From NCBI GenBank assembly GCA_003223455.1, contig QHVE01000049.1, positions 1-36,355 of the forward strand: a DNA stretch of 36,355 nucleotides, in the 5' to 3' direction. Numbering within the stretch: position 1 is the stretch's first letter; each line of letters starts with the position of its first letter. The translations under genes were made by a program, and so were the position numbers. This DNA comes from Gemmatimonadota bacterium (GTDB lineage Bacteria > Gemmatimonadota > Gemmatimonadetes > Gemmatimonadales > Gemmatimonadaceae). Shown here in pieces: positions 8,258 to 36,355 of the stretch. The notes under the pieces are model-generated. The model was not told the DNA's origin. It saw only the letters and a program-made list of their open reading frames with translations, and made no database searches.

Positions 8258-8827
8258 TCAGGCCCTGATGATATCAGCTATTCCCTGACCCACCATACTT
8301 TCGGTGACCGTTCTGCCTCGCCCGTCCGTGTCGCTCGGACGAGCGCCGTGCTCCACCAGCAGGCGAACGATCTGCCATCGCTGCTCCGTCGCGGCGGTGG
8401 TTCCGCTCCCCCCGCGCCCGGTCTGCAAAAGTCACTCGATCGGAAGCTCGCCGGTCACGGCACATGCGGCGTGACCCACAACGCGATCGCCGCCCTTCAA
8501 CCGCGACGCGGTCGGCTGCCAGCCGCGCGCCAATCGATCCTGCAGCAGCTCGTCCGCCGTCGGTCGATGATTCCAGACGGCGACCGCCGTCACGGAGCCG
8601 AGTCAGCTCGTGTCGAAGCTGAGATAATGCGTCGGACCGAACGGCACGACGACGTCGTGCGTGTATTCGTCCTGCGTGACGATCTCGGACACGTTCAGCG
8701 GCGGATGCATCGCGCGCCCGGCCGCCAGTACATCGGCGAGTGTGAACGCGGCGCCGAACATGGCTCGGGCGCGATCGAGGATCGCGGCGTCGGCGCCGTG
8801 AACGGCGCGAAGGGTGATTTTCCGCAT
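8258..8827 (-). pseudogene. Ankyrin-repeat-like gene interrupted by two in-frame TGA codons
   Basis: From the ATG at 8827 (GAGGA four bases upstream) one frame runs 190 codons to TGA at 8258-8260, interrupted only by TGA at 8603-8605 and TGA at 8430-8432. All three segments look like one protein: MRKITLRAVHGADAAILDRA up to THYLSFDTS; then LGSVTAVAVWNHRPTADELL up to TGELPIE; then LLQTGRGGSGTTAATEQRW with IVRLLVEHGARPSDTDGRGR, a recognisable ankyrin repeat. Each TGA is one transition from TGG (Trp) or CGA (Arg). TGA is a normal stop in neighbouring genes, for example in the overlaps at 9610 and 29180, so genome-wide recoding is excluded. Nonsense decay is the simplest reading. The first 74 codons could still give a short product. 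Confidence 0.6.
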
Positions 8828-25902: not shown

Positions 25903-26053
25903 CGACCTGTTCCTCGTGCGTGGGTGTTCCGACCGGGTCGCGTCGGTTGTCGCGCCGCTTCGCGGCCTCACCGACACGTCGAACGTGACCGTTCCAAATC
26001 GACCGAAGCTTCGAGAAAGCCGCAAGCTGTCGCACTATTCCATCGCCGCCTTG

Positions 26054-26452
26054 TCAACGTCTGCGTTCGTCAGGCGGCTCGTCGTACGGCAAGTCGTCAG
26101 GTCGACACCCGACGTGATCGGGCGCCGGATCGGTGGCGAACTGCACGGCGTCGATCGCGTCTCGGCCCAGTACCAGTGCCTTGGTTACGCGATGCATGCC
26201 GTCCATGACGGCGCCGTCCGACGCGCGAATGATCGGATAGGCCAACTCCGCCTCGAACACGAGGCGGACGTGGGTAGCAAACGAGCGCCACGTCGGGGCT
26301 TCGTCCTCGCCGAAGAAGTGCTCCTCGAGTTCCCGAATCTCGGTGAGCGGGACAGACCGGACGGGAAGATCGCGAGTGAGATCGACGAGTCGATCCACGT
26401 CCCAGGCGAGCAAACCGCGCGGAGATTGACGAAAGAAATACTGCTTGCGCAT
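26054..26452 (-). CDS. Small stand-alone ParB-like (ParB/sulfiredoxin-fold) protein
   Basis: This 132-residue protein begins MRKQYFFRQSPRGLLAWDVD, then RLVDLTRDLPVRSVPLTEIRELEEH. The region PIIRASDGAVMDGMHRVTKAL fits the ParB/sulfiredoxin-fold nucleotide-binding motif (D-G-x-H-R). There is no helix-turn-helix domain, so it is not a plasmid-type ParB. Small proteins of this type occur as isolated genes in many soil bacteria and in integron cassettes. An upstream Met at 26479 is possible; neither start has a clear Shine-Dalgarno. Function unknown. Confidence 0.7.
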   Translation of the reverse strand: MRKQYFFRQSPRGLLAWDVDRLVDLTRDLPVRSVPLTEIRELEEHFFGEDEAPTWRSFATHVRLVFEAELAYPIIRASDGAVMDGMHRVTKALVLGRDAIDAVQFATDPAPDHVGCRPDDLPYDEPPDERRR

Positions 26453-26569
26453 GCCGGACTGGAAAGGCGGAGCCGTCATCGAGCGTGGGCACCCCAAGGA
26501 TAGCCGCCCATTGCAACCGTGCCGTCCATTCGCCATCGGGCACAACCATTGAACACCCAAGCTGCTCGA

Positions 26570-27058
26570 CTAGAGCGTTAGCGGCGGCCGGCCCCGGGAA
26601 GGGAGGATTCGTACGCGAGCGCCGAGCGCGTCGGCAGCGACTTCGAGAGAAATGCCGACGTTGATCGCATACTCCGTGGCCCAGTGCAGGAACTCCTCGC
26701 GGCTCATCGAGTACTCCGATGTCCCCGACTTGAATCGGATCGGCCCGTACTCGACACCGAGCGCTGCGAGCTTTTCCGCGTAGTACCGCACCTGGGTGGC
26801 GACGCCGTGGCCGACGACCTGTTTGCGCGCTTCGTCCAATGCGTCGATCGTCCATAGCCCGAGCATTCCCGGCTCGAGGAGCGGCGCCACCAGCAGGGGC
26901 TTCGCCAGAGCGCCGAGCCTCGCCCGCGCGCTGACCCAATCGAGGCGCTCGCCGCCGGGCCACAAGAGCCACGAGTCCGGCGCCAGAGGTACGTCGGGGC
27001 GTGCGTACGATTGGGCGCGTCGGACGATCTGCAGGGTGAGCTCCGCGCCGGTGTCCAT
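26570..27058 (-). CDS. Hypothetical 162-residue protein, probable integron cassette gene
   Basis: I do not recognise this protein. It starts MDTGAELTLQIVRRAQSYAR and has a mixed alpha/beta pattern, with WLLWPGGERLDWVSARARLG, ALAKPLLVAPLLEPGMLGLW and EFLHWATEYAINVGISLEVA. No signal peptide or membrane helix is evident. The ATG is 19 bases after the right-hand core (GTTAGCC, minus strand) of the attC-like site at 27078-27163, which is where a cassette gene would start. Near its 3' end the minus strand reads CGCTAACG, a possible degenerate left core. The Shine-Dalgarno is weak. Confidence 0.55.
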   Translation of the reverse strand: MDTGAELTLQIVRRAQSYARPDVPLAPDSWLLWPGGERLDWVSARARLGALAKPLLVAPLLEPGMLGLWTIDALDEARKQVVGHGVATQVRYYAEKLAALGVEYGPIRFKSGTSEYSMSREEFLHWATEYAINVGISLEVAADALGARVRILPSRGRPPLTL

Positions 27059-27376
27059 CGAGTAGATCCGTGTGGCTGGCTAACGCCCGAGTCACCCGCG
27101 AACGAGTCAAATAGGAGCGCGAACGAATCCCGCGCAATCCGAAAATCGTTCGTCGGGTTCGATGTATGGTCGCCGCCGCGGCGTCGCACATCGAGGATCA
27201 AGGCAGCCCTGGCACGCGGACGACGAACCCATGTGTGCGCGTCACCACGCGCCTCTTTCGAATACCCTCTTGCGCCGGCATTCTCTCATGGCGTTCTAAT
27301 GGCCCGCATGCCAAAATATTAGCTCCCAAATCGACCCATCCGTTCGGACGGTAGTTCCTACCCGCAGCCCCCGGAA
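27059..27376. other. Intergenic stretch with attC-like site and kor operon promoter region
   Basis: The left half holds the attC-like site (27078-27163). The right half must carry the promoter of the plus-strand oxidoreductase operon. A locally AT-rich patch (CCAAAATATTAGC, about 27311-27323) lies 55 bases upstream of the operon's ATG and may be part of it. No Shine-Dalgarno precedes the ATG at 27377. No supported gene is present. Confidence 0.5.
27078..27163 (-). repeat. attC-like integron recombination site (candidate 3)
   Basis: Read on the minus strand, the right core is GTTAGCC (27084-27078), preceded by TGACTCGGGC, which closely follows the known attC right-half consensus ending CTCVRRCGTTAGSC. 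The arms CCCGCGAACGA (27095-27105) and TCGTTCGTCGGG (27146-27157) pair with one unpaired base, the hallmark of attC L boxes. An inner GCGCG/CGCGC stem (27117-27121, 27131-27135) closes the hairpin. The left core is ATCGAAC, degenerate. A minus-strand gene starts 19 bases beyond the right core. Confidence 0.6.
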
Positions 27377-29182
27377 ATGCCTGGTCCAGCCGACGTCGCC
27401 CGCCCGGACTACTACCATAAAGTGGTCGACTGCCAATGGGCCTGCCCGGCGCACACCAATGTGCCCGAGTACCTCCGGTTGATCGCCCAGGGTCGCTACA
27501 CGGAGTCCTACCTCCTCAACCGGGAATCCAACGTCTTCCCGGGCATCCTCGGCCGGACCTGCGACCGCCCCTGCGAACCGGCATGCCGGCGAGGACGCGT
27601 CGACGGAACGCCGGTCGCCATTTGCCGGCTCAAGCGCGTCGCCGCCGACCTACGCGACGACATCACCGAGTACCTCCCCAAGGCGCCCTCCATTCGGAAC
27701 GGCAAGCGCATCGCGCTCATCGGCGCCGGACCGAGTTCGCTCACCGTCGCGAATGACCTCCTCCCCATGGGCTACGAGGTCGTGATCTACGAGCAGCACC
27801 CGCGCGCCGGCGGGCTGATGCGCTTCAACATCCCCTCGTTCCGCCTGCCCGAGCAGGTCCTCGATGATGAGACGAACTACATCATCGACATGGGCGCCGA
27901 GGTCCATTACAACACGAAGGTCGAGAGCCTGAAGGGGCTCCTCGACGACGGCTTCGACGCGGTCTACGTCGGCAGCGGCGCGCCGAAAGGAAAGGAGCTC
28001 GATATCCCGGGCCGCTGGGACGACGCCGCAAAGAGTCATATCCACATCGGCATCGAGTGGCTCGGATCCGTTCATTTCGGGCACATCGACACGATCGCGC
28101 CGCGCGTGCTCATCATCGGCGTCGGCAACACTGCCATGGATTGCTGCCGCACCTCTCGGCGGCTTGGCGGCGTCGACACGACAGTCGTCGCGCGTCGCTC
28201 GCGTCCGTATTTCAAGGCGTCGCCGTGGGAGCTCGAGGACGCGGAGGAAGAGACCATCCACATCGTCGAGAATCACGCGCCCAAGCGGTTCGTGATCGAG
28301 AATGGCAAGCTCGTCGGCATGGAGTTCGAACAACTCGTGTGGAGTGAGAAGGACGGCAAGCAGGTCAGCACTGTGACTGCCACCGTCATCCTGCCGTGCG
28401 ACGAGGTCATTCTCGCCATCGGTCAGGACAACGCGTTCCCCTGGATCGAGCGCGACATCGGCATCACGTTCGACAAGTGGGGCATGCCGGTGGTCGACAA
28501 GGTGACGATGGAGAGCACGCGCGCCGGTGTGTTCTTCGGCGGCGACGCTGCATGGGGTCCGCAGAACATCATCTGGGCGGTGGAGCACGGCCATCAGGCG
28601 GCCATCTCCATTCACCAGCATTGTGAGGGACGTCCGGTCACCGACCGTCCGCCACAGGGCATGCACCTCGAGAGCACGAAGATGGGCATGCATGCGTGGG
28701 CGTACTCGAACGACTTCAATCCGTCGCCGCGCGCGAAGATGCAGCACGCGGAGCTGGTCGAGCGCTTCTCGAAGCTGGGGCTCGAGGTGGAGCTCGGCTT
28801 CACGGCCGAGCAGACGGCTACTGAGGTCGAACGCTGCCTCAACTGCGATATCGAGACACACTTCGCGTCGAAGCTCTGCATCGAATGCGACGCGTGCGTC
28901 GACGTGTGTCCGGTGAGCTGCCTCACCATCACGCCGAACGTGGAGTCGGAGTTCGACCTGCGAACGACGCTGTCGGCGCCGGCGCTGAATCTCGCGCAAC
29001 CGCTCTATGTGTCCGAGTCCCTGCCACAGACGAAGCGCGTGATGGTGAAGGACGAAGATATCTGTCTGCACTGCGGACTGTGCGCCGAGCGCTGCCCGAC
29101 GGCGGCGTGGGACATGGCGAAGTTCGCGCTGGTGATCCCGTATGCGTCGGCAATGGATGCTCCGGTGGCGGTCAACCCATGA
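27377..29182 (+). CDS. GltD-like FAD/NAD(P) oxidoreductase with two C-terminal [4Fe-4S] clusters
   Basis: This 601-residue flavoprotein resembles the small subunit of glutamate synthase. The N-terminal cluster domain has Cys19, 23, 62, 66 and 70 (CQWACPAH, GRTCDRPCEPAC). The FAD fold is GAGPSSLTVAN (116-126), the NAD(P) fold GVGNTAMDC (248-256), and the FAD-closing motif FFGGDAAWGPQNIIWAVEHG. The C-terminus carries two ferredoxin motifs, C501xxC504xxC507xxxC511P and C563xxC566xxC569xxxC573P. It should pass electrons between NAD(P)H, FAD and ferredoxin-type clusters. Its stop overlaps the next start (ATGA), so it is probably the dedicated electron partner of the ferredoxin oxidoreductase. No Shine-Dalgarno is visible. 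Confidence 0.9.
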   Translation: MPGPADVARPDYYHKVVDCQWACPAHTNVPEYLRLIAQGRYTESYLLNRESNVFPGILGRTCDRPCEPACRRGRVDGTPVAICRLKRVAADLRDDITEYLPKAPSIRNGKRIALIGAGPSSLTVANDLLPMGYEVVIYEQHPRAGGLMRFNIPSFRLPEQVLDDETNYIIDMGAEVHYNTKVESLKGLLDDGFDAVYVGSGAPKGKELDIPGRWDDAAKSHIHIGIEWLGSVHFGHIDTIAPRVLIIGVGNTAMDCCRTSRRLGGVDTTVVARRSRPYFKASPWELEDAEEETIHIVENHAPKRFVIENGKLVGMEFEQLVWSEKDGKQVSTVTATVILPCDEVILAIGQDNAFPWIERDIGITFDKWGMPVVDKVTMESTRAGVFFGGDAAWGPQNIIWAVEHGHQAAISIHQHCEGRPVTDRPPQGMHLESTKMGMHAWAYSNDFNPSPRAKMQHAELVERFSKLGLEVELGFTAEQTATEVERCLNCDIETHFASKLCIECDACVDVCPVSCLTITPNVESEFDLRTTLSAPALNLAQPLYVSESLPQTKRVMVKDEDICLHCGLCAERCPTAAWDMAKFALVIPYASAMDAPVAVNP

Positions 29183-30981
29183 GCGGCATCAACGACTTCG
29201 CGTTCAAGATGGCGACGGTGAATGGCACGGGTTCGGCGAGTGCCAACAGCCTGCTGATGCAGGCCATCTTTCGCATGGGCGTGCCCGTCACCGGGAAGAA
29301 TCTCTTTCCGTCGAACATTCAGGGACTGCCGACGGTCTACGAGATTCGCGTCAGCAAGGACGGCTACACCGCACGGCCGCATGAGGTGGATCTCGTCGTG
29401 GCGCTGAATCCGGCCACCTACGCGAAAGACGTCGCGTCGGTGCGGCCCGGCGGCTACCTGCTGTACGACTCGTCGTGGCCCCTCGAGCCAGAGCTCGTGC
29501 GTGAAGGCATCACGATACTCGGCGTTCCGTTCGGGAAGCTCTGCGTCGAGCACTTCCAGGGCGACCGCGACCGCACGCTGCTGCGCAATATCGTGTACGC
29601 CGGCGCGCTCGCCGCGCTGCTCGACCTCGACATCGCCCTCATCGGTCGGATGCTGGTGCAGAAATTCTCGAAGAAGCCACGGTTGCTCGACGCCAACAAC
29701 ACCGCGATCCGATTGGGCTACGACTACGCGCGAGCGCACTACGAGTGCCCACTGCCGTTCCATCTCGAGCGGATGGACGCCACCAGCGACTTCATCATCA
29801 TCGACGGCAACACCGCCGCTGCACTCGGTGCCGTCTTCGCGGGCGCGACAGTGGGTGCATGGTATCCCATCACACCGTCGACGTCGCTGATGGAAGCGTT
29901 CACGATGTTCTGCCGCCAGTATCGCACCGAGCCCGGCACCGGACTGGCGCGGTACTGCATTCTTCAGGCGGAGGACGAGCTCTCCGCCGCGGGCATTGCC
30001 ATCGGTGCGGGCTGGGCGGGCGCGCGCTCCTTCACGAATACATCGGGACCCGGCATCTCGCTGATGCAGGAGTTCATCGGGCTGGCGTACTACACGGAGA
30101 TTCCGACCGTCGTCTTCGACATCCAGCGCACTGGTCCGTCCACCGGAATGCCGACGCGCACGCAACAGGCGGACCTCCTCTCGCTGGCGTACGCGTCACA
30201 CGGCGACACCAAGCACATCGTGCTCTTCCCGTGCAGTCCGGAGGAATGCTTCTATCTGAGCGTCACGGCATTCGATCTCGCCGATCGCTTTCAGACGCCG
30301 GTGTTCGTCGCGAGCGATCTCGACATCGGGATGAACGACTGGATGTGCAAGCGCCTTCAGTGGGACGACAGCTTCCAGCCGGATCGCGGCAAGGTGCTGG
30401 ATGCGGACGATCTCGCGACGGTGAAACGGTTCTCCCGCTACTTCACCGAGGACGACGATGGCGTCGCGCCGCGTACGCTGCCCGGCGTGCATCCGGCCGG
30501 CGCGTATTTCGTGCGCGGCTCGGGACACGACAAGCACGGGCAGTACACCGAGGACTCCGACGCGTATCAGGAAGTCGTCGATCGGCTGAGGCACAAGTTC
30601 GCGACGGCGGCGCATTCCGTTCCGCCGCCGGAATTCATCAATGGCGACGCCGGCGCGGACATCGGTATCGTCACGATCGGCGGATGTCGCGCCGCGGTGC
30701 TGGAAGCGATCGACCGTCTGCGCGCCAAGGGCATCAACGCCGACTACATGCGCATCAAGGCATTCCCCTTCGGGCCGCAGGTCAGGGCGTTTCTCGATGC
30801 GCACGCGAAGGTCTTCGTCGTCGAGCAGAACCGCGATGCGCAACTGCGCACGCTGCTCACCGCGGAGACGGGTTTCCCGCGTGACGCCATGACGCCGGTG
30901 CTCGACTACGGCGGCATGCCGCTCACGGCACAGATCGTCGTCAACGCAGTCGCCACGCAGGTGCAGCAGGTGCCGGCATGA
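29179..30981 (+). CDS. korA: 2-oxoacid:ferredoxin oxidoreductase, fused gamma-alpha subunit
   Basis: This 600-residue subunit joins the gamma and alpha domains, as in KorA-type enzymes that decarboxylate 2-oxoglutarate or another 2-oxoacid to an acyl-CoA. The gamma domain begins GTGSASANSLLMQAIFRMG (16-34). The alpha domain has YPITPSTSLMEAF (229-241), QAEDELSAAG (263-272), TSGPGISLMQEF (288-299) and DIQRTGPSTGMPTRTQQAD (314-332), the usual CoA/TPP-contact motifs. The frame is open far upstream inside the previous gene, but the ATG at 29179 overlaps its stop in ATGA and begins the homology. Substrate (2-oxoglutarate, pyruvate or branched-chain oxoacids) cannot be fixed from sequence. Confidence 0.92.
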   Translation: MSGINDFAFKMATVNGTGSASANSLLMQAIFRMGVPVTGKNLFPSNIQGLPTVYEIRVSKDGYTARPHEVDLVVALNPATYAKDVASVRPGGYLLYDSSWPLEPELVREGITILGVPFGKLCVEHFQGDRDRTLLRNIVYAGALAALLDLDIALIGRMLVQKFSKKPRLLDANNTAIRLGYDYARAHYECPLPFHLERMDATSDFIIIDGNTAAALGAVFAGATVGAWYPITPSTSLMEAFTMFCRQYRTEPGTGLARYCILQAEDELSAAGIAIGAGWAGARSFTNTSGPGISLMQEFIGLAYYTEIPTVVFDIQRTGPSTGMPTRTQQADLLSLAYASHGDTKHIVLFPCSPEECFYLSVTAFDLADRFQTPVFVASDLDIGMNDWMCKRLQWDDSFQPDRGKVLDADDLATVKRFSRYFTEDDDGVAPRTLPGVHPAGAYFVRGSGHDKHGQYTEDSDAYQEVVDRLRHKFATAAHSVPPPEFINGDAGADIGIVTIGGCRAAVLEAIDRLRAKGINADYMRIKAFPFGPQVRAFLDAHAKVFVVEQNRDAQLRTLLTAETGFPRDAMTPVLDYGGMPLTAQIVVNAVATQVQQVPA

Positions 30982-32033
30982 CGTCGATCGCCAAACCGCC
31001 CATTCGTCATCCCGGGCTGAAGACCAATTCACTCGGGCTCACGCCGCGCGACTATGAAGGCGTGATGTCCACGCTCTGCGCCGGTTGCGGACACGACTCC
31101 GTGACCGCCGCGCTCGTGCAGTCCATGTGGGAGCTCGCCATTCCTCCCCACCGCGCGGCGAAGATGAGCGGCATCGGCTGCTCGTCCAAGACGACCGCGT
31201 ATTTCATGAAGCAGTCGCACGGCTTCAACTCCGTGCACGGGCGCATGCCGTCGGTCGCCTCCGGCGCGAACGCCGCGAATCGCGCGCTCACCTACATCGG
31301 CGTCTCGGGCGACGGCGATTCTCTGTCGATCGGACTCGGCCAGCTCTGTCATGCGATCCGGCGGAACGTGCGCATGCTGTACGTGATCGAGAACAACGGC
31401 GTGTACGGACTCACGAAGGGTCAGTTCTCGGCGTCAGCGGATATCGGCTCGACGTCGAAGAAGGGCGACGCCAACGTTCAGCCTCCGATTGACCCCGTCC
31501 TGCTTGCGCTCACGCTCGGCGCCACGTTCGTCGCGCGCGGCTTCTCGGGCGACAAGGCCCAGCTCATTCCGATCCTGAAGGCTGGGCTATCGCACAATGG
31601 CCTCGCGCTGGTCGACGTCATCTCACCGTGCGTGACCTTCAACGATCACGAAGGCTCCACGAAGAGCTACGCGTTCACCCGCGAGCACGAGGTGGAGATC
31701 GCCGCGGCCGATTTCGTTCCGCTGCGTCGAGAGATCACCATTCCGGCGAGCGATACCACGGTGCAGGTGGTGCAAATGCACGATGGAAGCACCGTGCGCT
31801 TCCGCCGACTCGAGGACGGTTACGATCCGACGAACCGCGATCTCGCGTATGCCCACGTACGCGCGTGCCAGGCGCGTGGCGAGATGGCGACGGGACTCCT
31901 GTTCATCGACGAGAACGGTGCCGACATGCACGCGGTGGCGAAGACTGTCGATACGCCGCTGGCGGAGCTGCCGTTCGAGACGCTGTGCCCGGGGCAGACG
32001 GCGTTGCAGGCGTTGATGGAGAAGTATCGATAG
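30978..32033 (+). CDS. korB: 2-oxoacid:ferredoxin oxidoreductase, beta subunit (TPP and [4Fe-4S])
   Basis: This 351-residue subunit binds thiamine pyrophosphate and one [4Fe-4S] cluster. LCAGCGH (33-39) opens the domain; the TPP/Mg motif is GDGDSLSIGLGQL (111-123), followed by ENNGVYGLTKGQ (138-149). Cys34, Cys37, Cys68 and Cys218 have almost exactly the spacing of the four cluster ligands in the two-subunit archaeal-type enzyme. The start overlaps the korA stop (ATGA). The enzyme acts in the cytosol with KorA, passing electrons to ferredoxin or to the flavoprotein encoded first in the operon. Confidence 0.93.
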   Translation: MTSIAKPPIRHPGLKTNSLGLTPRDYEGVMSTLCAGCGHDSVTAALVQSMWELAIPPHRAAKMSGIGCSSKTTAYFMKQSHGFNSVHGRMPSVASGANAANRALTYIGVSGDGDSLSIGLGQLCHAIRRNVRMLYVIENNGVYGLTKGQFSASADIGSTSKKGDANVQPPIDPVLLALTLGATFVARGFSGDKAQLIPILKAGLSHNGLALVDVISPCVTFNDHEGSTKSYAFTREHEVEIAAADFVPLRREITIPASDTTVQVVQMHDGSTVRFRRLEDGYDPTNRDLAYAHVRACQARGEMATGLLFIDENGADMHAVAKTVDTPLAELPFETLCPGQTALQALMEKYR

Positions 32034-32688: not shown

Positions 32689-32800
32689 CGTCAGGTCGTC
32701 GTCTCGCTGAAGGGTGATCTGTCGAGGGTCGGGCAAGCCATCGGGCAGCGCCTATCCGCCGCACTGTCACCCATCATCCTGTTGCTCAGACCAGCAACGG

Positions 32801-33070
32801 TCAGACGTGATAGATGGCCCAGCCGCACACGCCCGTGACCAATGCCCAGTAGGTGCGGGCCACTGCGACGTACCAGGGTAGCAGGCGCCGGCCCTGCGCG
32901 TCGTAGTTCGCCGCATCGCGCCGCGCGGCGACCGCCGCGCGCGTGAACGCCAACGCCTGGCTGGGGTCGGGACGGTCGATGCGATGCTCCACCAGCTTTG
33001 ACGTCAGCACGATGCGTGCTTGGCCCAAGACGAACCAAGCCGCGACGAGCGCGAGACTATAGCTAGACAT
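32801..33070 (-). CDS. Small two-helix membrane protein, probable integron cassette gene
   Basis: This 89-residue protein of unknown function has a first hydrophobic segment SLALVAAWFVLGQARIVL and a second near the C-terminus (VARTYWALVTGVCGWAIYHV). The middle is charged (EHRIDRPDPSQALAFTRAAV). The ATG at 33070 has GGAGGG eight bases upstream. The right core of the attC-like site (33098-33092) ends 22 bases before it. The stop TGA lies in GTCTGAC, which differs by one base from a standard left core, but no complete attC follows it. Confidence 0.7.
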   Translation of the reverse strand: MSSYSLALVAAWFVLGQARIVLTSKLVEHRIDRPDPSQALAFTRAAVAARRDAANYDAQGRRLLPWYVAVARTYWALVTGVCGWAIYHV

Positions 33071-33091: not shown

Positions 33092-33188
33092 GGCAAACGC
33101 CAGAGTTCACTTGCAAGCGAATCGATAGCATGCGGCGGCGAAGCCGCCGCAACCGAAGATCGCTTGCCAAGTGCAACGCACGTCAGGG
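33092..33188 (-). repeat. attC-like integron recombination site (candidate 2)
   Basis: Arms GTTCACTTGCAAGCGA (33105-33120) and TCGCTTGCCAAGTGCAAC (33160-33177) pair along 16 bases with two single unpaired bases, the typical attC pattern. The apex is a perfect 9-base-pair hairpin TGCGGCGGC/GCCGCCGCA with a GAA loop (33131-33151). On the minus strand the left core is CCCTGAC and contains the GrpB stop codon; the right end AACTCTGGCGTTTGCC follows the attC right-half consensus with a T in place of A in the core. The cores are atypical, the folded form is convincing. Confidence 0.68.
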
Positions 33189-33737
33189 TTCACGGTCGCG
33201 ATACATGCCCCGTGCCTTTGCCTGGCGCAACATCTCGTGAACGAATGCCGTCTTGCCATCGATGTAGGCCTCACGATCCCGCGGATACTTCTGCGCCAGC
33301 ATGTACTTCAGCGACGCGTATGCGCCCGCGACACCATCATCTGCACGAAGGAGATCGCGGAATGCGACATGATCCTGCCAAAAGCTGCCGCGGAACTGCG
33401 CCAGGTGAAGGTGGTACTGGCGCGGATCGCCTCGCCGAAAGAACTGGCGGCCGGGAATTCCTTGCTCGCCGCGATAGGTGTAACCTGCATCTTGCAGGGC
33501 CGCGATCAGGCGCGGGAGTTCCTCCAAATGACGCCAACCCGCAAGAATGTCAACGATCGGCTTGGCGCATAGGCGAGGTACTGCGGTGCTCCCCGTGTGC
33601 TCGATCACAAGCACCAAGTTGGCTGCCGCGAGCGTCTCCCGAATGCGTTCGGCCTCCTGCGCGAACAGGTCTACCCATCGGGGATCGTGTGGCATGACGC
33701 GAACGGTCCCTGACTCGAGTCCCAGCGGAGTATCCAT
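33183..33737 (-). CDS. GrpB-family protein, probable integron cassette gene
   Basis: This 184-residue protein belongs to the GrpB/UPF0157 family, which has a nucleotidyltransferase-like fold. Its signature is VRVMPHDPRWVDLFAQEAER, then VIEHTGSTAVPRLCAKPIVD (the G-S-T-A-V-P motif) and RQYHLHLAQFRGSFWQDHVA. The biochemical role of the family is poorly defined. GGAG lies eight bases before the ATG; a GTG one codon earlier (33740) is equally possible. It sits between two attC-like sites: its start is about 20 bases from the right core of 33757-33894, and its TGA stop is inside the left core of 33092-33188. That is the exact layout of a mobile gene cassette. Confidence 0.88.
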   Translation of the reverse strand: MDTPLGLESGTVRVMPHDPRWVDLFAQEAERIRETLAAANLVLVIEHTGSTAVPRLCAKPIVDILAGWRHLEELPRLIAALQDAGYTYRGEQGIPGRQFFRRGDPRQYHLHLAQFRGSFWQDHVAFRDLLRADDGVAGAYASLKYMLAQKYPRDREAYIDGKTAFVHEMLRQAKARGMYRDREP

Positions 33738-33756
33738 CACGAGCGCTCCGGGTGAA

Positions 33757-33894
33757 GCCTAACGCTCGAGCTCAGTTGCAACTGACCAGCTCAATATGCA
33801 GCTCACCCGCGTGAGCGCACTACCATCTCGATAGGCGCTGCACCGCAATGCTTCGGACGATTTCGCGCTCGTCAGCTGCAGCGATTCGTTGGGC
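33757..33894 (-). repeat. attC integron recombination site (candidate 1, best)
   Basis: Minus-strand reading begins with left core GCCCAAC (33894-33888), spacer GAATC, then L box GCTGCAGCTG. It ends with L box CAACTGAGC, spacer and right core GTTAGGC (33763-33757). The L boxes pair with one extra G on one side, the hallmark of attC hairpins. The right end (CTGAGCTCGAGCGTTAGGC) and the left end both fit the long-known degenerate attC consensus at most positions. The central 80 bases contain further self-complementary segments such as CAGTTGCAACTG. The GrpB gene starts about 20 bases beyond the right core. Confidence 0.75.
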
Positions 33895-33958: not shown

Positions 33959-35827
33959 TCAAGACCGACGCGGCAAGGCGGCGCGCACGTACTCGTCGAC
34001 ATTCCTGGCCAGCACGTCCAGGGGCACGTTGCCGCCCAGGACCACGGTGTCGTTGAACGCCTTGATGTCATACCTGGAACCGAGGGCGGTCATCGCGCGC
34101 TGACGCTGTCGAAGGATCTCGCTGTGGCCAACCTTGTAGCCGCACGCCTGTCCCGGCCAGGCGCAGTAACGATCGACCTCGCTCGCCACCTCCAGCGGAT
34201 TCGACCCGTTGACGTCGACGAAGAACTGCACTCCCTGCTCTCGCGTCCACCGCTTGGCGTGGATCCCCGTGTCCACCACGAGCCGGCAGGCGCGGAACGC
34301 CAGCGATTGGAGGAATCCAAGGCGCCCTGCCGGATCGTTCTCGTAGGCCCCGAACTCGTCGGCGAGCTGCTCCGCGTACAGTCCCCAGCCTTCCGAGTAC
34401 GCATTGAAGCCAAGCAGCTGGCGGATGAGCGGCATGCCGTGCGTGTACTCGCCCTGCCAGATGTGGCCGGGAATCGACTCGTGAAACGCGAGATCGGGAA
34501 GACTGTATTTGCTGTGCAGGCTCGTGGCGCGCAGGTTCAGCCAGAAACGACCCGGGATCTTGCCGTCGATTGATCCGGCGCCGCCGTAGGCGGCCGGCGC
34601 GCCGGGCTCCTCCTCGGGCGGCAGGCGCTTCACTTCCATGTTGGGATGCACGAGCGTGTTGAACATCCGCGGCATCTGCCCGCGCACCCACGCGAGCTTC
34701 GCCTCGATGAACGCGAAAATCTCCGCCCGGCCCGCGTCGCCTTCCGGGAACTGGTATTTGGGATCCTTCGCCAGCGCCCTCATACGATCCCCGACCGATC
34801 CCGATGTATAGCCCATCGGCCTGAGGATCGCATCCATGCGTGCATGCAGATCATCGAGCTCGCGCCGTCCCATTTCGTGAATTTCGTCCGGCGACATCGC
34901 CGTCGTCGTCGACGCCTTCAGGGCGTATCGATAGTACGCATCGCCGCGCGGGCGAGCCCAAACACCCGCGTCCATCGTCGCGACCGCACGCTCCTGCTGA
35001 AGTTCGGCAATCTGGCGCTCGAGCGCGGGTGCAACTTCCTGCGTCGCGATCGCGCGCGCGCGCTGCGCCCAACTACCCGCAATGTTCTTCGTCCGCCGCT
35101 CGAGCGACTCGACGAGCGATGCACCCTCACGCGCATTCCTCGCCGCCAGGCCGAGCTGGCCGACGGCCTTGTCGATGAGGAACGCCGGCGGTACGAGTCC
35201 CATCGCTCGCGCCGACTGCATGCGGCCAAGCTCTCCGTCGAGCTGTCTTACATAGAGCTGGAGCCGAGCCAGGTATGCCTCGGCATCCGAAGCATTCCCG
35301 ACTGGATGGTCGCTGTCGAGGAACCTTGGCGTGTCGAGGTACGCCCCGACGTTCTGAATGACGACGTAGGGTGTGTTGCGGTAGCCGCCGACGGCCACGT
35401 CGCCGTACGGAATCGAGAATCCCTCGAGCGCGGTGGCGTACGCACTGCGCACCACCTCCACGCTCGTGCGCGTGGCGAAAGACAACGGCGTCGTGTCGAT
35501 CGCGTTGGCACGCGCGAGGTCGGCGCGGACCTGCGCGGCGACGCGTTGCGTGCCGGCCGCCGAGCGGTCGCCGAGCCGAGCGCGCAATCCGGCGCGCGCG
35601 CCGATATCGATACCGAGGCTCGTCGCACTTTCGGGAAAGAGCCGCAGAAACGCTTCACCGATGTTGTCGAGGACCGCGAGGGCGGCCTCGTCCGCGGGTG
35701 AGGGTGACGGTGATGGTGACGGCGACGTCACGCGTCGGCCCGCGGCGCAGCCGGGCAGCAACGGAAGCACGGCGGCGGACGCGAGGGCGGCAAGCAGCTG
35801 TCGTCGGTTCAGTGAAGCGTCGCTCAC
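33959..35827 (-). CDS. DUF885-family putative metallopeptidase with Tat-type lipoprotein signal
   Basis: This exported protein of about 622 residues begins with a GTG giving VSDASLNRRQLLAALASAAV and LPLLPGCAAG, a twin-arginine signal that ends in a lipobox. The frame is open to 35926, but that extension (SFASTGILFDSPAAW) precedes the signal and is unlikely. A Ser-Pro repeat linker (SPSPSPSPSP) follows. The DUF885 core carries AFHESIPGHIWQ about residue 449 and AYSEGWGLYAEQL after it, the likely metal-binding motifs of a gluzincin-like peptidase. Peptidase activity is predicted for the family, not shown here. It ends 64 bases before an attC site, so it may be the preceding cassette, although it is longer than typical cassette genes. 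Confidence 0.85.
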   Translation of the reverse strand: MSDASLNRRQLLAALASAAVLPLLPGCAAGRRVTSPSPSPSPSPADEAALAVLDNIGEAFLRLFPESATSLGIDIGARAGLRARLGDRSAAGTQRVAAQVRADLARANAIDTTPLSFATRTSVEVVRSAYATALEGFSIPYGDVAVGGYRNTPYVVIQNVGAYLDTPRFLDSDHPVGNASDAEAYLARLQLYVRQLDGELGRMQSARAMGLVPPAFLIDKAVGQLGLAARNAREGASLVESLERRTKNIAGSWAQRARAIATQEVAPALERQIAELQQERAVATMDAGVWARPRGDAYYRYALKASTTTAMSPDEIHEMGRRELDDLHARMDAILRPMGYTSGSVGDRMRALAKDPKYQFPEGDAGRAEIFAFIEAKLAWVRGQMPRMFNTLVHPNMEVKRLPPEEEPGAPAAYGGAGSIDGKIPGRFWLNLRATSLHSKYSLPDLAFHESIPGHIWQGEYTHGMPLIRQLLGFNAYSEGWGLYAEQLADEFGAYENDPAGRLGFLQSLAFRACRLVVDTGIHAKRWTREQGVQFFVDVNGSNPLEVASEVDRYCAWPGQACGYKVGHSEILRQRQRAMTALGSRYDIKAFNDTVVLGGNVPLDVLARNVDEYVRAALPRRS

Positions 35828-35939
35828 GAGGGTGAGTCCCAGGAGGAATGGAATATCGCGCACGGTCTGACGAGCGAGCCAAGCCGCAGGCGAATCAAAC
35901 AAGATGCCCGTTGATGCGAAGGACACCGCGCGCGGATCA

Positions 35940-36005
35940 GGGCAACGAGCAGGGGCAACGAGCAGGATTCGATAGCGCCGTCGTCAGCTTCAGCTTTCGT
36001 TAGCC
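35940..36005 (-). repeat. Possible degenerate attC (candidate 4) with tandem 13-base repeat
   Basis: On the minus strand GGCTAAC (36005-35999) contains the TAA stop of the dihydrofolate-reductase-like gene, as a left core should, and the following GAAAGCTGAAGCTGACG resembles the attC left half. The right half is poorly complementary. It ends with two adjacent copies of CTGCTCGTTGCCC (35965-35953 and 35952-35940), each with a GTTGCCC core-like end. The tandem pair may be a duplicated right end. Confidence 0.4.
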
Positions 36006-36355
36006 GCGCGCGCGCCGGTAGTGCATGGCGAGGGCGCCGTTGCGGAGCTGCTTCGCCGAGACCAGCTCGAGCCGTCGCGTACTGGGCAGCCCGTTCTGGT
36101 ACAGGGTCGGGCCGTGGCCGGCGATTCTCGGGTGGACGAGAAACTTGTATTCGTCGATCAGGTCCAGCCGATCCAGCTCGGTTGCGAGCTTGCCGCTACC
36201 GAGGAGCACGCCGGCCGGCGTCGCGTTTTTTAGCTTCTGCACCCCCGTGCGCAGGTCGCCGGCGATGTGGTGGCTGTTGGTCCACGGGAAGTCCGTTCGC
36301 GTCGACGACACCACGTACTTCGGCTTGGCCTCCAACTTGACCGCCCACTCGCGCA
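36000..36355 (-). CDS. Dihydrofolate reductase/RibD C-terminal-like protein (5' end outside window)
   Basis: About 118 residues of the C-terminal part are visible; the frame runs to the window edge, so the start lies outside. The sequence KPKYVVSSTRTDFPWTNSHH, then GVLLGSGKLATELDRLDLID and EYKFLVHPRIAGHGPTLYQN, matches the DHFR/RibD-like reductase family that is usually annotated as dihydrofolate reductase family protein. It probably binds NADPH (GSGKLA loop); the substrate is not known. The TAA stop lies inside a left attC-like core, so this may be the first cassette of the group at the right edge. Confidence 0.85.
   Translation of the reverse strand, partial: REWAVKLEAKPKYVVSSTRTDFPWTNSHHIAGDLRTGVQKLKNATPAGVLLGSGKLATELDRLDLIDEYKFLVHPRIAGHGPTLYQNGLPSTRRLELVSAKQLRNGALAMHYRRARG

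Follow-up and report, generated by a model that had tools for sequence, protein, structure and literature searches.

Genes and attC sites of the window

The window (the whole stretch of DNA analysed, 36,355 bases) is the entire contig QHVE01000049.1 (C7) of a 4.96-Mb genome assembled in 127 contigs, and its host lineage is Gemmatimonadaceae. An Rfam scan gave zero matches of any kind. A series of minus-strand genes and attC sites is present at the right end of the window, ordered from that end as RibD-like gene, attC, DUF885 gene, attC, GrpB gene, attC, 89-aa open reading frame (ORF) and half attC. The right end of the contig falls inside a cassette, where the RibD-like gene is cut at position 36,355. 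The features are listed below. Bit scores and E-values of the attC sites were obtained with the covariance model R1 described in the next section, and the E-values are rough because the calibration of the model was shortened.

36000 to 36353, minus strand: probable cassette with a gene for a RibD_C (dihydrofolate-reductase-like) protein, truncated at its 5' end where the contig stops (Pfam PF01872, E 1.7e-7)
35865 to 36005, minus strand: degenerate attC (33.8 bits, E 4.6e-6; R'' GGCTAAC, R' GTCAGAC)
33959 to 35827, minus strand: DUF885 gene, large cassette with an attC on either side (Pfam PF05960, E 9e-152)
33757 to 33894, minus strand: attC at the junction where the DUF885 cassette ends and the GrpB cassette starts (46.8 bits, E 4.4e-9; R'' GCCCAAC, R' GTTAGGC)
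33183 to 33740, minus strand: GrpB (UPF0157) cassette gene (Pfam PF04229, E 4.7e-48; GTG at 33740 or ATG at 33737)
33092 to 33188, minus strand: attC of the GrpB cassette (41.1 bits, E 9.5e-8; R'' CCCTGAC, containing the GrpB stop; R' GTTTGCC)
32801 to 33070, minus strand: 89-aa ORF, next cassette gene, start 21 nt past R' of attC 33092-33188
32783 to 32806, minus strand: degenerate half attC (R''-L''), GTCTGACCGTTGCTGGTCTGAGC, read from the sequence and under the R1 threshold
27376 to 32033, plus strand: NAD(P)/4Fe-4S and 2-oxoacid:ferredoxin oxidoreductase genes, a 4.6-kb operon and not a cassette (Pfam)
27078 to 27174, minus strand: attC with R' GTTAGCC and a degenerate R'' (27.9 bits; E 1e-4 against the window and 0.015 against the genome)
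26570 to 27058, minus strand: 162-aa ORF, probable cassette gene, start 19 nt past R' of attC 27078 (from the ORF list and its position)
25978 to 26071, minus strand: candidate attC, degenerate, where the ORF at 26054-26479 ends (14.1 bits, E 0.16, not significant)

As the initial annotation had proposed, GrpB has the anatomy of an integron cassette; it lies within a partly worn array. The cassette comprises 665 bp (33098-33762), and the GrpB stop codon TGA (33183-33185) lies within R'' of attC 33092-33188, in agreement with its earlier placement in the left core of the second site. The right core had been placed 20-22 bases before a gene start; the distance from R' is 21 nt for the 89-aa ORF, and for GrpB it is 16 nt to the GTG or 19 nt to the ATG past R' of attC 33757-33894. 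The stop codon TAA of the RibD-like gene lies inside R'' of attC 35865-36005. The 89-aa ORF terminates with a TGA that falls within the R''-like sequence GTCTGAC, after which comes the half attC; the L'-R' half was looked for after the 89-aa ORF and was absent. One gene per attC in a fixed orientation, with the stop near R'' and the start near R', was found for the RibD-like gene, GrpB and the 89-aa ORF. The DUF885 cassette spans 2.1 kb between crossover points, with the DUF885 stop 64 bp from R'', and the gene counts as a cassette owing to attC 35865-36005. The array contains at least four cassettes, carrying the RibD-like, DUF885, GrpB and 89-aa protein genes. The feature as originally delimited included both of its claimed attC sites but was drawn too narrowly, leaving out the two further sites at 35865-36005 and 27078-27174. 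A perfect 12-bp inverted repeat connects the region after the 89-aa ORF (32745-32756) with the loop of attC 33757 (33830-33841).

The oxidoreductase operon is located on the opposite strand between the attC at 27078 and the remaining attC sites, a position that was counted against an array. The operon is chromosomal. It is kept in congeners but in other surroundings, where none of the flanking genes of the window accompany it. The oxidoreductase shows 69-77% identity over the protein to most congeners having one, and 92% over part of it in one congener. Assignment of the contig to this genome from another organism by faulty binning might be considered in an assembly split into 127 contigs, but is very improbable given these matches to congeners and the Gemmatimonadaceae type of the attC sites. 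In the region 26540-26600, the plus-strand sequence CCAAGCTGCTCGACTAGAGCGTTAGCG resembles an attC L'-R' half in the opposite orientation.

Covariance model and support for the attC sites

Loci bearing intI were gathered from relatives, attC sites were picked out there by scanning for motifs and stems, and an alignment was made of 40 of these sites. The covariance model R1 was trained on those 40 sites from other genomes only, with zero window sites inside, and was run on the window with filters off. The named structure was kept in 94.4% of the cells of the alignment, and two-sided (compensatory) changes were present in 15 of the 22 pairs; when the partner was slid by 1-3 columns as a control, paired cells fell to 23-41%. 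The scan of the window gave four attC matches, all on the minus strand, with a next best score of 14.1 bits. Control loci of relatives, 90 kb in all, gave no match at E <= 1. R1 also picks up attC sites of proteobacterial chromosomal integrons (e.g., Nitrosomonas, locus L199). Among the matches listed from the genome-wide scan were two more attC sites, located at C94:7522-7620 (58.8 bits) and C2:864-963 (41.3 bits). The compensatory changes, the matches to an independently built model and the clean controls were counted in favour of an array.

Both minus-strand attC sites that the initial annotation had placed around GrpB were recovered by the covariance scan it had suggested, with significant scores under a model built from the attC of relatives. 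When the DNA of 33757-33894 was read on the plus strand, the score was only 7.5 bits. The unpaired bases described earlier in the paired arms are extrahelical bases (GCT[G]CAGCTG[A]CG in 33757-33894 and GTT[G]CACTTG[G]CAAGCG in 33092-33188) positioned as in the attC of relatives. The pairs of R and L boxes with extrahelical bases that characterize attC sites are present, the R boxes of 33092-33188 being degenerate.

Both sites were also folded as single strands. The site at 33092-33188 has a strong fold (z -4.8), but only 3 of 7 positions match between its R boxes, and its R'' is eroded. The site at 33757-33894, as free DNA, folds no better than shuffles (z -0.8), which was counted against an array, and its minimum-energy fold differs from the attC fold. 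The fold of attC 35865-36005 was also no better than shuffles (z 0.4). Because the longer of the two sites flanking GrpB lacks a fold signal and the shorter has mismatched R boxes, support for the window attC sites comes from covariance and homology and not from raw folding energy. Minimum-energy folding was dropped as the main test because energy by itself would have been misleading: true array sites of relatives fold well, unlike the long site of the window.

Such structures could instead be hairpins formed by chance, or transcription terminators that separate ordinary genes of the chromosome, given that GC-rich DNA yields many hairpins and that the folding energy of the longer site is not significant. 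This explanation, already disfavoured, is extremely improbable in view of the matches to an independent model, obtained on the correct strand only and with E-values of 1e-7 to 4e-9, and of the core and spacer sequence common to arrays beside intI.

Integrase and attI-like sites of the genome

A profile search of the contigs of the genome, a check that had also been recommended, identified an intact integrase gene (intI) on the minus strand of contig C23 (C23:709-1644; TIGR02249, 408 bits, cut-off 265). In the IntI tree, the encoded integrase groups with Gemmatimonadaceae IntI at 100/100, and two of the rows next to it are Gemmatimonadaceae MAGs with named records. An attI-like core, TAATTNGCGTTARR, is located directly after intI on C23, and the core TAATTNGCGTTA or a close variant after the intI stop is common to most congeners aligned. 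A strict attI-core pattern gave two sites in the whole genome (C23 and C94), and the reversed control gave 0. Thus a putative attI adjoins intI on C23, which is a feature of complete integrons. A perfect 14-bp inverted repeat (GCAGCCTATTCTGC / GCAGAATAGGCTGC) lies between intI and the attI core on C23 (L001:467-562) and is partly kept on C2.

The cassette had been described as lacking a nearby integrase. The window indeed contains no intI, but this absence may be an assembly effect, because the contig ends inside a cassette and the genome has a full intI. The array and the intI contig C23 are both cut by contig ends, and no contig joins intI to the window array.

Contig C94 (L065:7121-7620) carries a lone attI-like core, TAATTGGCGTTAGG, followed by a gene for a 122-aa protein with its stop in R'' of the strong attC (58.8 bits), after which come another gene and, near 8785, the R''-like sequence GGCTAAT. 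Contig C2 (L064:864-1627) carries a 79% copy of the C23 attI region with a degenerate core, followed by a glyoxalase gene and an attC; this stretch is probably what is left of a second platform after the loss of its intI. No match to the intI profile was found on C94 or C2. A dispersed integron in which one IntI would serve several docking sites (the C23 attI, the lone core on C94 and the C2 copy, the latter two without intI) is a rather unlikely arrangement, in a bacterial family whose integrons are as a rule inverted.

Integrons of relatives

An IntI scoring above the curated cut-off was found in 62 of the 119 relatives searched. In the 28 loci of relatives having both intI and attC, all attC sites (89/89) are located 3' of intI on the same strand, the strand of each site being its better-scoring one. 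As a control, R1 was run on named genomes and, in 20 loci that come almost exclusively from Proteobacteria, placed attC on the other strand and 5' of intI; since these loci were found by the same model, the method does not force the inverted-layout result. The inverted-integrase layout, with intI and cassettes running in the same direction and attI 3' of intI, therefore occurs in the relatives. In the genome under study, the evidence for this layout consists of the attI core and the first gene on C23. The loci L039:1-8669 (genome G024) and L046:10827-19676 (genome G023), with 17 and 15 attC sites beside intI, respectively, are good reference arrays for Gemmatimonadaceae integrons. The IntI of the genome, the attI-like core and the arrays of relatives, with 15-17 attC sites beside intI in the same layout, were counted in favour of an array in the window.

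Integrons are best known from Proteobacteria. The Gemmatimonadaceae and their order constitute a sizeable reservoir of cassettes for which few descriptions exist, and a stretch read there contains up to 17 attC sites. A lineage-specific attC model finds such cassettes, also where assemblies break inside arrays.

Distribution of the cassette genes and signs of exchange

The GrpB gene was found in 18 of the genomes searched, its own included, and in 2 of 9 congeners. Homologues of the 89-aa ORF were found in only two other relatives (1 of 9 congeners), and close homologues of DUF885 occur in other genera only, with none in the genus. The presence of these three genes is therefore patchy within the genus, and they vary between close relatives as cassettes do. 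The same gene order without cassette variation in related genomes, named at the outset as an observation that would speak against a cassette, was not the case. The patchy cassette genes and a gene order around the operon that is not shared with congeners were counted for an array. The same cassette had been expected beside other attC sites elsewhere. This expectation failed for GrpB, as a scan of the GrpB homologues of relatives gave no attC within about 1.5 kb, a result counted against an array, and it holds only loosely for DUF885, whose homologues (79% and 73% identity) in other genera adjoin attC sites but are not framed by them.

If cassettes move as circles, R'' is expected to match the 5' core of its own cassette, so that such a match is a mark of cassette exchange. 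In the relatives, R'' fitted the 5' core of its own cassette better than the 3' junction core in 35 cases, equally in 15 and worse in 3 (p 4e-6). R'' of the GrpB cassette agrees with this rule (5/7 against its own 5' core, 3/7 against the 3' core). That of the DUF885 site is contrary to it (4/7 and 6/7, respectively) and was counted against an array.

Origin and state of the array

The right end of the window is, with high probability, part of a chromosomal integron cassette array, which would have been built by the IntI encoded on C23 and whose sites may still be able to recombine. The IntI would bind attC in the form of its folded bottom strand and exchange strands at G|TTRRRY, so that cassettes would be excised, or inserted at attI. 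With attI just 3' of intI, the intI gene would be read toward the array.

The low-scoring sites with their broken cores suggest that the stretch is ageing, distal or dispersed. As a version of this reading that does not exclude it, the array may consist of immobile relics, with sites decayed beyond the reach of IntI. The window sites score 28-47 bits, against 59 bits for the site on C94 and 60-88 bits for many array sites of relatives, R'' and R' cores are broken, two sites fold poorly, and a half attC is present at 32783-32806. The right-hand sites nevertheless retain L stems and extrahelical bases, and the GrpB cassette retains its 5/7 match between R'' and its own R'. Complete immobility is given somewhat less than an even chance.

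The cassettes may also form a separate cluster without intI (CALIN), inserted at a distance from the main integron, instead of being the distal part of the C23 array. Such a cluster would fit the additional attC sites without intI on C2 and C94 and the chromosomal nature of the operon that separates the attC groups. However, contig ends truncate both the C23 array and the window array, and the directions of the two are compatible, which makes a single array equally possible, and a separate cluster is given slightly less than an even chance. The cassette array of the window is in either case confirmed as part of an inverted chromosomal integron or as a dispersed cluster of its cassettes. Elements of this kind are ordinary and known, whereas few descriptions exist for the lineage.

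Comparison with known systems

The phylum Gemmatimonadota is already listed among integron-bearing phyla, although in the available text of PMC8618304 it is named only, without anatomy. The window array, which comes from the same phylum as the integrons of that source, thus adds a member to a known kind. The literature search found no text describing the anatomy of Gemmatimonadota integrons.

The inverted-integrase layout has been reported for Treponema (PMC3607928, PMC10500605), and archaeal attI sites have also been reported downstream of intI (PMC9668308). The integrons of Treponema denticola share with the array described here the TTRRRY cores and one gene per attC, whereas the present array belongs to another phylum and has attC sites of about 90-140 nt with the lineage-typical core GCCTAACGAANCGTTGCAGCTGACG. 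On the IntI tree, the orientation label takes two changes, and integrases of the inverted layout do not form one clean clade.

A CALIN is defined in PMC8618304 as a cluster of attC sites lacking an integrase, which the attC sites and cassettes of the window resemble in having no intI. The sites at 33092, 33757 and 35865 form such a cluster, with two or more attC inside 4 kb and intI missing from their vicinity, although the absence of intI may reflect the contig end. The genome described here differs in having an intact intI elsewhere and a contig that ends inside the array.

Canonical proteobacterial chromosomal integrons, such as that of Nitrosomonas (L199), share the IntI family and the attC fold with those of the Gemmatimonadaceae. 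Their attC sites are located 5' of intI on the opposite strand, unlike those of the Gemmatimonadaceae.
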